From positions 372,001 to 436,000 of the forward strand of contig NZ_AUHV01000003.1 of NCBI RefSeq assembly GCF_000423365.1: a DNA stretch of 64,000 bases, in the 5' to 3' direction. The notes under the pieces were generated by a model that was not told where the DNA came from, searched no databases, and worked only from the letters and a program-made list of their open reading frames with translations. Source of the DNA: Maritalea myrionectae DSM 19524 (lineage in GTDB: Bacteria; Pseudomonadota; Alphaproteobacteria; Rhizobiales; Devosiaceae). Positions 7,479 to 40,532 of the stretch are shown here, in pieces. Numbering within the stretch: the first letter of the stretch is position 1; each line of letters opens with the position of its first letter. The position numbers and the translations under genes were made by a program.

Positions 7479-8369
7479 TTATTCAGCAGCTGCCTTTTTC
7501 GGCTGCACCGCATCTGCATAAGCCTCGATCATTTTTTGACAAATGTCGCGCTTCTCAAAGATGGTGCCTTCGATTTCAGCAACAGGCGTGACTTCAGCCG
7601 CAGAACCGGTCAGGAAGCATTCTTCAAAATCGCCAATTTCGTCAGGCATAATTACCCGCTCAATGACGTTGATGCCCTGCTCTTTCGCCAACCCAATAAC
7701 GGTGCGACGGGTAATGCCATCCAAGAAGCAATCAGGCTTTGGCGTATGGATTTCACCATTTTTGATGAAGAACACATTCGCGCCAGTCGCCTCCGCCACA
7801 TAACCGCGATAGTCGCGCATCAATGCGTCTGAATAGCCTTTGGCTTCGGCGGCGTGCTTTGAAAGGGTGCAGATCATATAAAGACCTGAAGCCTTAGACG
7901 CGAATGGCGCAGAATCTGGCGCCGGACGCTGCCAATCAGACCAAGCCAGGCGCACACCTTTGAGCTTTTCTTCCATGGAAAACAGGCTCGGCCATTCCCA
8001 TGCGGCAATCGCCAAATGAACAGGGTTGTTGTGGGCGCCAAGGCCCAACTCATGCGACCCGCGCCACGCTAGGGGGCGCATATAGGCGTTGGTGAGATTG
8101 TTCTTCTCCAACACCTCGCGGCAAGCGGCGTCAATTTCGTCAGCTGAATATGGAATTTCGAAATCCAGAATATTGGCGGATTTGCGCAAGCGCTCAGAAT
8201 GCTCGTGCAACTTGAACACTTCGCCATTATATGCCCGCTGCCCTTCAAACACGCTCGACGCGTAATGCAAAGCATGGGTCAACACATGCACCTTGCACTC
8301 TTTCCACTCGCGCATCTCTCCATCAAACCAGATCCAACCATCACGTTGGTCTAAAGGTACACCGGCCAT
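7479..8369 (-). CDS. ilvE: Branched-chain amino acid aminotransferase
   Basis: A 296-aa fold-type IV PLP aminotransferase, interconverting Leu/Ile/Val with their 2-oxo acids. The start MAGVPLDQRDGWIWFDG is at 8369, preceded by a GGGAGAAG ribosome site; an upstream extension to 8459 has none. Family motifs are HALHYASSVFEGQRAY, the PLP-lysine region SKASGLYMICTLSK, GYVAEATGANVFFIKNG and FLDGITRRTVI. Class IV enzymes also include D-amino acid aminotransferases, but the N-terminal WFDGEM and length fit IlvE. It is divergent from a MarR gene, a pairing common in this bacterial class. Confidence 0.9.
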   Translation of the reverse strand: MAGVPLDQRDGWIWFDGEMREWKECKVHVLTHALHYASSVFEGQRAYNGEVFKLHEHSERLRKSANILDFEIPYSADEIDAACREVLEKNNLTNAYMRPLAWRGSHELGLGAHNNPVHLAIAAWEWPSLFSMEEKLKGVRLAWSDWQRPAPDSAPFASKASGLYMICTLSKHAAEAKGYSDALMRDYRGYVAEATGANVFFIKNGEIHTPKPDCFLDGITRRTVIGLAKEQGINVIERVIMPDEIGDFEECFLTGSAAEVTPVAEIEGTIFEKRDICQKMIEAYADAVQPKKAAAE

Positions 8370-8527
8370 TTTCTTCTCCCTCAAATCGGCTTTTGGCCCG
8401 AAATTATGTTTGAAATCACTTATGCTGAGCCATAAATCGGCATATTTTGCATTTGACAAGCTGCCGATCTTGGCAAATGGCCCAAGCTTTGGGATAAGTG
8501 TAAATCAAACTGTGAACAGGGTGAAGC

Positions 8528-36202: not shown

Positions 36203-36318
36203 AGCTCCTCACTTATGTCGCCTTAAACCATCATTGGGTGAAAATTGTGCAAACGCCTCTTTTTTTGGCGTGCAATTTTCGCCATAGTGCGCCCAACTGC
36301 AGGGAGCCAACCATTTCT

Positions 36319-37212
36319 ATGACCACGATTGCCCATATTTCAGATGTGCATTTGCCATACCATGAAAAAGTCACCCTGCCCCAGTTGTTGAATAAGCGGA
36401 TCACCGGCTATCTCAATTGGAAGCTCAATCGGGGCCATGCGATCGAAAACGACACCCTGCAATCTTTAATGGCGCATCTTAAGACCCAGCATTACGACCA
36501 TTTGGCCGTCACTGGCGATTTGATCAATTTATCGCTGGAACAAGAGTTTGCGTTGGGTCAGCAATGGCTGAAATCCATTGAAAAACCAAACAAGCTGATG
36601 TTCATCCCCGGCAATCACGACATTTATGTGCCTTCCGGCAAGGGCTATATGACCCATTATTGGCATGAATATATGGAAGGGGAACGCGCCGAGGACAAAT
36701 ATCCATTTCCCTTTTGGCGGCAAGTGGATGACGTGGCCCTGATTGGCTGCAACAGCGCCATTGCCACGCCCCCCTTTTTCGCCAACGGCACATTTTCGCG
36801 CCGCCAAGAGCGCTTGCTTGAAAAATTGCTGGTCAAGACCAAGGAAATGGGCCTGTTTCGGATTGTGATGATCCACCATCCGCCGCACGACGATGTGATG
36901 AATATTTGGCGCCGTGGCCTCACCAACCGCCACCGCTTTAAGCGCGTGCTGAAAAAACATGGTGCCGATCTGGTTTTGCACGGCCATTTGCACAAATCCG
37001 AACTTAAATCTCTGCCGGGTCCGCATGGCGAAATCCCGGTGGTGGGCATTTCGTCCGCCTCTATGGGCCCCAATGCTGTGCAGCCGCCAGCGTCCTACAA
37101 TCTTTATAATATTGAGAAGCAGGGTGATAATTTTACCTGCACAATGCAGGAATATGGCTACCACCGATTTGGCGATACAATCGAAAAACGCGCCGAGTTG
37201 GTCCTGTCCTAA
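36319..37212 (+). CDS. Calcineurin-like metallophosphoesterase
   Basis: A 297-aa dinuclear metal phosphoesterase. Metal-ligand motifs in order are ISDVHLPY (D-x-H), VTGDLINL (GD), PGNHDIY (GNHD), IHHPPH and VLHGHLHKSEL (GHxH), a complete set. ATG 36319 (MTTIAHISDVHL) is preceded by AGGGAG. Lacking a membrane segment, it is probably cytoplasmic; members hydrolyse cyclic nucleotides, UDP-diacylglucosamine or others. It ends 48 bp before murL. Confidence 0.88.
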   Translation: MTTIAHISDVHLPYHEKVTLPQLLNKRITGYLNWKLNRGHAIENDTLQSLMAHLKTQHYDHLAVTGDLINLSLEQEFALGQQWLKSIEKPNKLMFIPGNHDIYVPSGKGYMTHYWHEYMEGERAEDKYPFPFWRQVDDVALIGCNSAIATPPFFANGTFSRRQERLLEKLLVKTKEMGLFRIVMIHHPPHDDVMNIWRRGLTNRHRFKRVLKKHGADLVLHGHLHKSELKSLPGPHGEIPVVGISSASMGPNAVQPPASYNLYNIEKQGDNFTCTMQEYGYHRFGDTIEKRAELVLS

Positions 37213-37260
37213 CCTGCGGCCGAACTTGCTTTTAACACATTTTTGGTGATGCTTGCCGCT

Positions 37261-38586
37261 ATGAACACCTTCATTATTGATTCTGCAGAATTCAACGCTG
37301 AAACTGGCGAAGCTAAATTCAACTATCGTCTCGGCGAGCACCGGTTTACCGAGCGCTTGGAGTTGGGCGTCGGGTTTGATCTTGCCCGCGCACAGAGCAA
37401 CAGCTTTGCCCACCTGCTGGATCTGGCTGCAGCAATTTTGGGCGTGTCCTATTATAAGCTGAAAGCCCCGAAAACCATTGATTTGACCACGCTCAATCTG
37501 AGCGAAGCTGATCAGATATTGTTGCGCGACATATATGAAAACGGCTTGGGCGAATTTTACACCCGCAATAAGTTGAAACGGTTTGGCCAGATTGACTATC
37601 AGTTCGCGCCAGCCATCACGCCGACCAACGACCTTGATTGGCCGCAGCAATCGCTGGTGCTGATCGGCGGGGGTAAGGATAGCCTTGTATCGGTTGATTT
37701 ATTGACCCGCGCCAACATTCCATTCACCCCCTTCGCGGTGAACCCAAAAGGGCCAATCATCAGCTCGACCGACCAGATCGAACAAAGCCCACTCTTTGTT
37801 CGGCGTCACCTCTCGCCAACCCTATTCGAGTTGAATGACCAGCCCGGATTTTACAACGGTCACGTCCCCTCCACAGCAATCAACTCCGTTGTGGCGAGCC
37901 TAGTGGCAGCGCTCTATGGCTATAATGAAATCATTTTGTCCAACGAACGCTCCGCAAGCGAAGGCAATGTGGAATTTGATGGCCGCGAAGTGAACCATCA
38001 GCACTCGAAAAGCCTCGATTTTGAACAATTGATGGAAACCAGCTTTAAGGCAGCGAGCGGCGGTCAGCTCGGCTATTTTTCATTGTTGCGCCCCTTCTCT
38101 GAAGTGCGCATCGGACAGCTTTTTGCCCGCACGCAAAAATTCGATCAGCATTTTTCTAGCTGCAATGAAAATTTCAAACAAAACCAAGATGGCCCCAAAC
38201 GGTGGTGCACCAACTGCCCCAAGTGCCATTTTGTCTCGCTGATCCTCGCGCCCTTTATGGAGCCGCAACGCCTGACTGACATTGTTGGCAAGAACGTGTT
38301 GGATGATGCCACTAAGCTCGGCGCATTTCGCGAACTCTCCGGCCTAACCGGTCACAAACCTTGGGAATGTGTCGGTGAGATTTTGGAAGCCGCTGCCGCG
38401 CTGTGGCATCTGGCCCATCAAGACCATTGGCAGGATGCGGCGATTGTGAAGACGCTTAAGCCGGAGCTGGACGCGTTCTATGGTGCGCCCACATTGGAAA
38501 GCGCATGGGACGAATTGCTTCAGGATGCGAACCAGCATAATGTGCCGGAAAAATATCAATTGAACGAGATTGCCCGTGCAAGCTGA
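37261..38586 (+). CDS. murL: UDP-MurNAc-L-Ala-L-Glu epimerase (MurL)
   Basis: A 441-aa protein that matches the MurL family. MurL epimerises the terminal L-Glu of UDP-MurNAc-L-Ala-L-Glu to D-Glu in an ATP-dependent reaction, described in Xanthomonas oryzae. Conserved blocks are GVSYYK (61-66), a PP-loop-like GGGKDS (136-141), NGHVPSTAI, LSNERSASEGNV, VNHQHSKSLDFE, YFSLLRPFSE and CxxCxxC (316-322) followed by LILAPF. It overlaps murD2 by 11 bp, the partner ligase. The start is ATG 37261 (ATG 37249 is possible). Confidence 0.88.
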   Translation: MNTFIIDSAEFNAETGEAKFNYRLGEHRFTERLELGVGFDLARAQSNSFAHLLDLAAAILGVSYYKLKAPKTIDLTTLNLSEADQILLRDIYENGLGEFYTRNKLKRFGQIDYQFAPAITPTNDLDWPQQSLVLIGGGKDSLVSVDLLTRANIPFTPFAVNPKGPIISSTDQIEQSPLFVRRHLSPTLFELNDQPGFYNGHVPSTAINSVVASLVAALYGYNEIILSNERSASEGNVEFDGREVNHQHSKSLDFEQLMETSFKAASGGQLGYFSLLRPFSEVRIGQLFARTQKFDQHFSSCNENFKQNQDGPKRWCTNCPKCHFVSLILAPFMEPQRLTDIVGKNVLDDATKLGAFRELSGLTGHKPWECVGEILEAAAALWHLAHQDHWQDAAIVKTLKPELDAFYGAPTLESAWDELLQDANQHNVPEKYQLNEIARAS

Positions 38587-39874
38587 TCAATATTTCAACC
38601 GTGCCGTTTTGCTTTATGGTGCCGGTATCGAAGCGAAATCCACCCGAGATTTTTTGGCCGAATATGCCCCTGACATCAAAGTCTATGTCACCGCCGACCA
38701 AGGTGAGATTTTCCTGCCCGACAGCACGGTTATCGCCCCAACTGAAATTGAGGCATTAAGCGAAAAAGGCGAAATTGGAACGATTGTCCGCTCGGCCGGG
38801 GTATCGATCTATAAGCCTGAACTGCTCGCCGCAAAAAAACATGGGGTCGAGATCACCACCAACATCAATTTGTGGGACAAGTTTAAGCGCAAGGGCGCGA
38901 AACTGGTGGCAGTGACAGGCACCAAGGGCAAAAGCACAACGGTGAAACTGACCGAAACCATGCTCGAATGCGCCGGAATCGATGCGCGATTGGGCGGCAA
39001 TTTTGGCGTCGCCCCGCTCGATTTGGATGATCACGACATCATCGTGATGGAACTCTCCTCCTATCAGGTGGCAGACTTGACCGCGCAACCGGACTTTGTG
39101 GGCTTCACCAATCTGTTCCCCGAGCACATACATTGGCACAATCACTCACTGCCGCAATATTTTCACGACAAGCTGAACCTGCTGCGCCGTGACGGGCCTT
39201 ATGCTTATGCCCTGGGCGCTCAAGCGGCGGTGAACCAGAAGGTGCAGGAAGCGCTGCCCAAATATGCCCATGAGCTGGCCGCCCCAAGCGCCGAGCTGGT
39301 CGCGGCCCTGCATGCCACCATGCGCAAATCGCGCCTCAAAGGCCCGCACAATGCGGACAATATGATCATCGCCGCCAAATTGGCCTTGGGTTTGGGCGCG
39401 CCTGAAGACGCCATTTTAAAAGGCCTTGAGACATTTGCGCCACCCGCACACCGGCTGGAGGAGCATAAGATCGGCAACCTGTTGTTTGTTGATGATTCCA
39501 TCGCCACAACACCAGAAGCCACCATGGCCGCCATCGCTTCATATCCCGACGAAAAAATTGCGCTGATGGTTGGCGGCTATGATCGCGATCAGAATTATGA
39601 AGAATTGGCGCGCACGGTGGTGGACAGCAATGTGACCGCGCTTTGCTGCTTGCCCACCACCGGGGAACGCATGCAAGCGGCAATGGATAAGCTTGACCAC
39701 AAAATTGATGTGTTCGCAGCGGAGGGGCTGGCCGACGCCATGGAAGGCTTTAAGCGCCGCGATGGGTTCGACACGATCATCCTGTCGCCCGCCGCACCAT
39801 CATTCAATCAATATGACAATTATATCGCCCGTGGTGAGCACTTCATTCAATTGGCCAACGAGCTGTTTGGCTGA
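38576..39874 (+). CDS. murD2: UDP-MurNAc-L-alanine--L-glutamate ligase (MurD2)
   Basis: A 432-aa Mur ligase. The ATP P-loop is GTKGKSTT (115-122), followed by VMELSSYQVADL, the metal/His region FTNLFPEHIHWHNHS and the C-terminal domain motifs PPAHRLEEHK and FVDDSIATTPEATMAAI. It resembles MurD but lies beside murL, as in the MurD2-MurL pathway where L-Glu, not D-Glu, is added to UDP-MurNAc-L-Ala. The start is GTG at 38576. Substrate stereochemistry is inferred from the linkage. Confidence 0.85.
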   Translation: MQADQYFNRAVLLYGAGIEAKSTRDFLAEYAPDIKVYVTADQGEIFLPDSTVIAPTEIEALSEKGEIGTIVRSAGVSIYKPELLAAKKHGVEITTNINLWDKFKRKGAKLVAVTGTKGKSTTVKLTETMLECAGIDARLGGNFGVAPLDLDDHDIIVMELSSYQVADLTAQPDFVGFTNLFPEHIHWHNHSLPQYFHDKLNLLRRDGPYAYALGAQAAVNQKVQEALPKYAHELAAPSAELVAALHATMRKSRLKGPHNADNMIIAAKLALGLGAPEDAILKGLETFAPPAHRLEEHKIGNLLFVDDSIATTPEATMAAIASYPDEKIALMVGGYDRDQNYEELARTVVDSNVTALCCLPTTGERMQAAMDKLDHKIDVFAAEGLADAMEGFKRRDGFDTIILSPAAPSFNQYDNYIARGEHFIQLANELFG

Positions 39875-40185
39875 TGTTTGGCATTGGCATTTATCGCCGT
39901 GGCAAGAAGCCCGGCACCCTCACAGCAGAATGGCTGGATGATCGCATGGTTGACGCAGGCATTCGCGCTGGCACGGGTTTTGCGCAAAACGGACCGACAA
40001 ACGGAATTGTCGGTGACTATGACATCACTTACGAGGCTGGCGATCAGCGCGTTGACCTGAAACTGACCATCCGCGCCGACGGACCGAATTTTCGCCTGCA
40101 ATGGCTCAAGGATGACGTCTTGATTGATGAGGGCATTGCCTTTCAATCTGCCGACTGTCTCATCCTCGGCTATCAATCCACATAA
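39874..40185 (+). CDS. Hypothetical 103-aa protein
   Basis: A soluble beta-rich 103-aa protein that begins MFGIGIYRRGKKPGTLTAEW and ends ADCLILGYQST. Its ATG overlaps the murD2 stop (TGATG), so it is translated with the murL-murD2 cassette. I do not recognise a family; the strand-rich pattern (VGDYDITYEAGDQRVDLKLTIR) suggests a small barrel. Confidence 0.65.
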   Translation: MFGIGIYRRGKKPGTLTAEWLDDRMVDAGIRAGTGFAQNGPTNGIVGDYDITYEAGDQRVDLKLTIRADGPNFRLQWLKDDVLIDEGIAFQSADCLILGYQST

Positions 40186-40196
40186 GAGATTTCCAC

Positions 40197-40532
40197 ATGC
40201 CCCAAGGCTATTTCTACCTCCTCATCGCGATTATCGGCGAAGTAGTTGCCACCTCCGCGCTGAAAGCCGCCAATGGATTTTCTGAAACGCTGCCCTCCAT
40301 CCTCGTGGTGGTTGGCTATGGCGTGGCCTTTTATTATTTGAGCCTCTCGCTCAAAACCATCCCGCTGGGCATTTCTTATGCCATCTGGTCTGGCGTCGGC
40401 GTCGTGGCAGTGTCGCTTATGGGCTGGGTCTATTACAAACAGGCGCTCGACATCGCAGCCCTCATCGGCATGGCGATGATTTTGGGCGGCGTCTTGGTGA
40501 TCCACCTCTTCTCAAATTCAGCCGCGCACTAA
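40197..40532 (+). CDS. Small multidrug resistance (SMR/EmrE-type) exporter
   Basis: A 111-aa protein with four membrane helices. The essential Glu of the first helix is present (LLIAIIGEVVATSALKAANGF, Glu15), as are YYLSLSLKTIPLGISYAIWSGVGVVAVSLMGW and a C-terminal helix. The exact LKTIPLG-YAIW-GVG pattern is diagnostic of EmrE/QacE-like proton-coupled exporters of cationic compounds. It sits 11 bp after the 103-aa gene. Confidence 0.93.
   Translation: MPQGYFYLLIAIIGEVVATSALKAANGFSETLPSILVVVGYGVAFYYLSLSLKTIPLGISYAIWSGVGVVAVSLMGWVYYKQALDIAALIGMAMILGGVLVIHLFSNSAAH

Follow-up and report, generated by a model that had tools for sequence, protein, structure and literature searches.

We analysed a 64,000-nucleotide stretch of the Maritalea myrionectae DSM 19524 genome (contig NZ_AUHV01000003.1, positions 372,001 to 436,000 of the forward strand; hereafter the window), in which two overlapping genes, murL and murD2, make up a cassette that would supply the D-glutamate (D-Glu) of peptidoglycan. 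The preliminary description had placed a calcineurin-like phosphoesterase gene, murL, a gene for a MurD-like ligase and a gene for a 103-aa protein at this locus, and a reading of the open reading frames (ORFs) confirmed that layout position for position, spacings and overlaps included. murL (37261-38586, + strand) encodes 441 aa and overlaps by 11 bp the ligase gene murD2 (38576-39874, + strand; GTG start, 432 aa), whose product scores 259.8 bits against the MurD model TIGR01087 (cut-off 211.95 bits). MurL had zero matches in a Pfam scan and scored 379.6 bits (E = 1.6e-113) against NF041275, the NCBIfam MurL model, which is named for Xanthomonadales and has a cut-off of 700 bits. The claim that MurL carries the whole motif set of the epimerase holds, because the window protein does not depart from 30 other MurLs at any of the 46 alignment columns invariant among them (46/46), which include GGGKDS, NGHxP, E229, NHQxSK, SCN, WCxxCxKC and CVG. 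It is 38% identical over 437 aa to the annotated MurL of Xanthomonas sacchari, and the closest named murL among the best 80 of 567 relatives is that of Maritalea porphyrae (contig NZ_JAPWGX010000004.1; 64% identity).

The MurD2/MurL pathway corresponds to XOO_1320/XOO_1319 of Xanthomonas oryzae, as told in passages of a 2021 review (PMC8788868). By analogy with the characterised relatives treated there, the window ligase would add L-Glu to the precursor and MurL would epimerise it. We searched the whole genome (3.54 Mb, 99.28% complete, 10 contigs) for the enzymes that usually provide and attach D-Glu. No MurI exceeded the TIGR00067 cut-off of 146.65 bits, the only match reaching 27.6 bits. 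The gene matched, the aspartate/glutamate racemase-like L001, was ruled out as a MurI: it encodes an asp_race/YgeA-type protein and carries TNTMH where glutamate racemases have their first catalytic Cys. The single PF01063 match in the genome is a branched-chain amino acid aminotransferase encoded in the window (7479-8459, − strand; 496 bits against NF005726, cut-off 396), which reaches 112 bits against TIGR01121 (cut-off 277); because this is the sole class-IV aminotransferase found, the genome has no D-amino-acid transaminase of class IV. One MurD passes the TIGR01087 cut-off, and its gene adjoins murL. Five further matches to that model score at most 115 bits; four of them fall on genes of the division and cell wall (dcw) cluster, one each on murC and murF and two on murE, and the fifth lies on contig C1. 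In the dcw cluster, murE, murF, mraY, murG, murC, murB and ddl exceed their NCBIfam cut-offs, ftsW falls slightly below its own (308 vs 337.5 bits), and the gene preceding murE encodes a penicillin-binding-protein-type transpeptidase scoring under the cut-off of its model; no murD lies between mraY and ftsW, whose ORFs are 111 bp apart. The genome thus lacks murI as well as a dcw murD, and the cassette stands in for the two; in this one genome whose dcw cluster was read, the MurD beside murL takes the place of the dcw murD. Gene identity and order are established, as are the MurD2-type residues of the ligase and the lack of the usual enzymes above curated cut-offs, and the cassette is very probably the bacterium's only source of peptidoglycan D-Glu. 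This supports the proposal in the preliminary description that MurL and MurD2 form the sole route if murI is absent.

To characterize the ligase, we considered the residues linked to its substrate specificity. Passages of PMC8788868 report that Xanthomonas MurD2 has Glu, Arg, Pro and Phe at the positions of Asp182, Lys348, Ala414 and Leu416 of Escherichia coli MurD, that exchanging the first two sites (Xanthomonas E197 and R358) made MurD2 a D-Glu enzyme, and that E. coli MurD K319T accepts L-Glu; we took this numbering, judging from the residues, as the Met-counted position minus one. The window ligase has E, R, P and F at the D182, K348, A414 and L416 sites and I at the K319 site. The count across murL loci comprised 117 MurDs with distinct cores, the window included (133 before identical cores were removed; seven loci without a MurD ORF and two with short ORFs were left out). 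The D182, K348 and K319 sites hold E, R and I or L in 112 of the 117, and D, R and I, L or F in four, while one has a gap; they hold D, K and K in all 18 MurDs that do not adjoin murL, one of which comes from a genome with a distant MurL-like gene (G086). In a 62-row tree, built with a quick method without bootstrap and with no actinobacterial canonical MurD among its rows, a single branch with a Shimodaira-Hasegawa-like approximate likelihood ratio test (SH-aLRT) value of 100 parts 43 MurD2s, the window ligase among them, from 19 canonical MurDs (the 18 above and E. coli MurD). The Devosiaceae MurD2s form a long branch within the MurD2s of other groups, and the six candidate-phylum MurD2s included in the tree form one group (SH-aLRT 81). 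The MurDs with D at the D182 site yet R at the K348 site come from murL loci L140, L158, L174 and L176, and are possible intermediates in a shift from D-Glu to L-Glu.

The distribution of MurL was surveyed at three levels. In a sample of the class, 17 of 385 genomes matched the MurL model at E <= 0.001 and none reached the NF041275 cut-off. MurI was searched for in 37 of these genomes, the 17 with a MurL match and 20 without: it exceeded its cut-off in none of the former and in 10 of the latter, including all four order relatives. The genome's best MurD adjoins murL in 13 of the 17 MurL-matching genomes; the murL loci of G050, G069 and G166 end at contig breaks, and G086 has a distant MurL-like gene and a canonical MurD located elsewhere. 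A distant MurL-like protein of 479 aa (L042:8113-9552; 112 bits against NF041275), which retains GGGKDS, NHQ, SCN and WCxxCxKC, is perhaps an epimerase acting on another peptide; its genome has no MurI match and encodes a canonical MurD at another locus. Within the Devosiaceae, MurL matched in 131 of 136 genomes and 15 of 16 genera. In three of these genomes (G397, G407 and G446) murL is split into two matches, perhaps through frameshifts or assembly errors; a TAA in the murL of G497 was ruled out as an interruption, since it precedes the ATG from which the frame is intact.

At the third level, a scan of genome contigs kept the best 80 of 567 relatives, and these include Micromonosporaceae, Microbacteriaceae, Alteromonadaceae, Rhodanobacteraceae and metagenome-assembled genomes (MAGs) of candidate phyla. 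Of these 80 loci, 47 have a MurD gene immediately after murL on the same strand, and 25, all actinobacterial, have it upstream on the opposite strand; three have other arrangements and five have no MurD in the locus, two of them being truncated by the contig. The candidate-phylum MAGs are labelled Microgenomates, Saccharibacteria, Taylorbacteria, Falkowbacteria, Roizmanbacteria, Moraniibacteriota, Peribacteraceae, Patescibacteria and Gracilibacteria (loci L143, L158, L162, L174, L176, L182, L185, L186 and L188), with binning errors possible. Four plasmid records also hold MurL relatives (H61-H64), one from Xanthomonas sacchari (508,653 bases) and three from Pseudonocardia. The 2021 review lists MurD2/MurL for Devosia and Pelagibacterium (PMC8788868). 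The window cassette is thus a confirmed instance of a known pathway, already in print for Devosiaceae and found here across nearly the whole family. The survey adds MurL relatives from outside the 2021 genus list, some of them in MAGs of several candidate phyla.

Several points weigh against the cassette as the only D-Glu route. The window MurL scores below the NF041275 cut-off, and the genome is split over 10 contigs. The absence of MurI is by itself unspecific: TIGR00067 also went unmatched in 10 of the 20 genomes that have no MurL match. In principle, L001 or DapF could make some D-Glu; Chlamydia DapF does so, according to a passage of PMC5885031. In an alternative reading, a canonical MurD specific for D-Glu would have been relocated from the dcw cluster to this locus, a racemase of broad specificity (the YgeA/RacX-like L001 or DapF) would make the D-Glu, and MurL would have another job. 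The presence of an asp_race/YgeA-type gene in the genome is consistent with this alternative, but that gene has TNTMH instead of the first catalytic Cys; likewise, although the ligase scores above the cut-off of the canonical MurD model, it is of MurD2 type at the very two sites whose exchange altered chirality in Xanthomonas MurD2 (PMC8788868, in part) and clusters with the MurD2s on the branch described above. Combined with the recurrence of MurL in 131 of 136 family genomes, these observations make a relocated canonical MurD very improbable, and we retain MurL and MurD2 as the likely D-Glu route.

The cassette is embedded in a conserved neighbourhood, and the preliminary description had suggested that the phosphoesterase or the 103-aa gene could be an accessory to the pathway. 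The calcineurin-like metallophosphoesterase gene (36319-37212, + strand; 297 aa, PF00149 63.3 bits) ends 48 bp before murL; in the mechanical ORF call it could begin further upstream, at 36238. Its product is matched in 130 of the 136 genomes of the family (E <= 1e-40). Among the 131 that match MurL, the gene shares contig and strand with murL and lies upstream of it in 125, within 2 kb in 105 and within 300 bp in 76. That conservation, together with the shared strand and tight spacing of the genes, is what one would expect if the phosphoesterase and the 103-aa protein were dedicated accessories, for example removing AMP or pyrophosphate or handling the nucleotide-linked precursor. However, each of the four order relatives that carry MurI has a phosphoesterase homologue (36-40% identity), and the other 16 class-sample genomes with a MurL match yielded none at E <= 1e-15, indicating that the phosphoesterase is a syntenic family neighbour and not specific to the pathway.

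The 103-aa gene (39874-40185, + strand) starts within a TGATG overlap with murD2 (39872-39876), and its product had no match in the model scans. Its reading frame is preserved in relatives, with a nonsynonymous divergence (dN) of 0.14-0.16 vs a synonymous divergence (dS) of 0.81-1.19 for the two closest; judged from these sequences, it is a real gene under purifying selection, and its product is predicted to fold as a small eight-stranded beta barrel. When its conservation beside murL was surveyed, it was found after murD2 in six of the 136 family genomes, which are all six sampled members of the window's genus, and in no other genus among the 136; in G499 it is doubled in tandem at that place (L193:3979-4679). 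Searching the 385 class genomes with a profile of the protein brought up weak relatives in five genomes other than the window's, all five lacking a MurL match; at the two loci read by eye, the neighbours are unrelated to peptidoglycan. Found in one genus among the 136 genomes and with weak relatives in genomes without a MurL match, the 103-aa gene is no better supported as a pathway accessory than the phosphoesterase, and dedicated accessories are very improbable.

The account of linked genes in the preliminary description did not include a further gene after murD2, which encodes a small multidrug-resistance (SMR)-type transporter (40197-40532, + strand; PF00893 102.8 bits). It has matches at E <= 1e-20 in 84 of the 136 family genomes and lies on the same strand 1.3-2.1 kb downstream of murL, in the slot after murD2, in 67 of the 131 MurL-matching ones; within the window's genus the 103-aa gene separates it from murD2. 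We conclude that none of the three flanking products, phosphoesterase, 103-aa barrel or SMR transporter, is a dedicated part of the pathway; they are its neighbours, and as bystanders do not turn the cassette into a larger system; the phosphoesterase and 103-aa genes may nevertheless be co-transcribed with it. Complementing the D-Glu route set out above, it is probable that history has kept the neighbourhood of phosphoesterase, murL, murD2 and SMR genes together in Devosiaceae, the cassette having landed beside an older, order-level phosphoesterase gene. The homologues in MurI-bearing order relatives and the long Devosiaceae branch inside the MurD2s of other groups are consistent with such a landing.

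Passages of PMC5808125 and PMC8788868 call the mechanism of MurL unclear for want of a recognised domain. We compared an AlphaFold2 model of the window MurL (predicted local distance difference test 88.7, predicted template modelling score 0.90) structurally with the 1000 top-ranked Foldseek chains, and the predicted model showed a QueC-type fold across most of the protein. The GGGKDS motif fits the SGGxDS pyrophosphate loop (PP-loop), with G replacing the first S, and aligned to the PP-loop of TtuA (E = 8.3e-4). Four cysteines, C301, C316, C319 and C322, are invariant in 31 of 31 MurLs, as are C332, C352, C355 and C358 in 10 of 10 QatC-type proteins. An hhalign profile alignment of MurL with QatC covered 254 columns in the expected order (E = 0.0037, probability 9%), and control alignments with MurD gave E = 0.15 against MurL and 0.42 against QatC. 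E. coli QueC aligned to MurL over the PP-loop only (33 columns, probability 3.7%), the PADLOC QatC model matched none of 31 MurLs and the QueC model one (E = 0.027), and a search of viral contigs with a QatC-type query brought up no relative.

We lean towards MurL being a QueC-family enzyme, nearest in build to QatC, that uses QueC-like carboxylate activation for stereo-inversion. It would be a QueC-fold PP-loop enzyme forming an acyl-adenylate, with the four cysteines placed as a putative metal site and an inversion active site of its own. The PP-loop would adenylate the alpha-carboxylate of L-Glu, the alpha-proton, acidified by adenylation, would be lost, the alpha-carbon would be reprotonated on the opposite face, and the adenylate would be hydrolysed last. 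This proposal has to be set against the facts that the fold was assigned on a predicted model, that few structure-comparison rows cover the N-terminal 125 residues, and that in a separate hhalign run the reversed QatC scored 29.3, above the real QatC (26.7), with 25.1 for the best of 60 column shuffles. Because the reversed control scored higher, the MurL-QatC profile match is not counted here as sequence proof of kinship. In the literature covered, partly as excerpts, no pairing of MurL with QatC, QueC or a PP-loop was found; the original papers behind the review were outside that coverage, and an earlier remark on the fold is possible. PMC2922099 was ruled out as such a link, since "murl" in the part concerned stands for Mur_ligase. 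The new element is a hint, from the predicted model, of fold kinship between MurL and the enzymes QatC and QueC, which are known from phage defence and tRNA modification. The fold match offers a mechanism for MurL that can be tested and connects the chirality of the cell wall with the QueC/QatC enzymes. If true, a fold of deazaguanine synthesis and defence-protein modification would also set cell-wall chirality, and QatC, the reaction of which PMC13279940 describes as unresolved, would gain in MurL a model whose substrate is known.

Among known systems, the MurD2/MurL pair of Xanthomonas is closest to the window cassette. Both have adjacent, overlapping genes (the X. sacchari pair, annotated murL and murD, overlaps by 20 bp), both occur without MurI or a D-amino-acid transaminase, and they have in common the specificity residues of the ligase and the invariant residues of MurL, the motif residues of X. 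sacchari being identical. The window genes differ in sequence, with 38% identity to X. sacchari for murL and 30% for murD2, and in being flanked by phosphoesterase and SMR genes; in the window's genome, murD is also missing from the dcw cluster. QatC belongs to the qatABCD anti-phage system (PDB 9y02, 9y01; PMC13279940, in part), whereas no QatA, QatB or QatD genes adjoin the window murL, the neighbours of which are the phosphoesterase, MurD2, 103-aa and SMR genes; the substrates of the two proteins differ, and their profile similarity is no better than the reversed control. Two alphaproteobacterial plasmids carry QatC-like genes (L206:2811-6553 and L207:2808-6511; 111 and 104 bits against PADLOC QatC) preceded by a small hypothetical gene and followed by an XRE-type and a further gene; neither QatA nor QatD is annotated in these stretches, which perhaps represent a variant system. 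Compared with the 7-cyano-7-deazaguanine synthase QueC (PDB 3bl5, 2pg3) and with Cap9 (9nto), MurL extends beyond the core domain on either side and has GGGKDS instead of SGGxDS and C-x14-CxxCxxC instead of C-x8-CxxCxxC.

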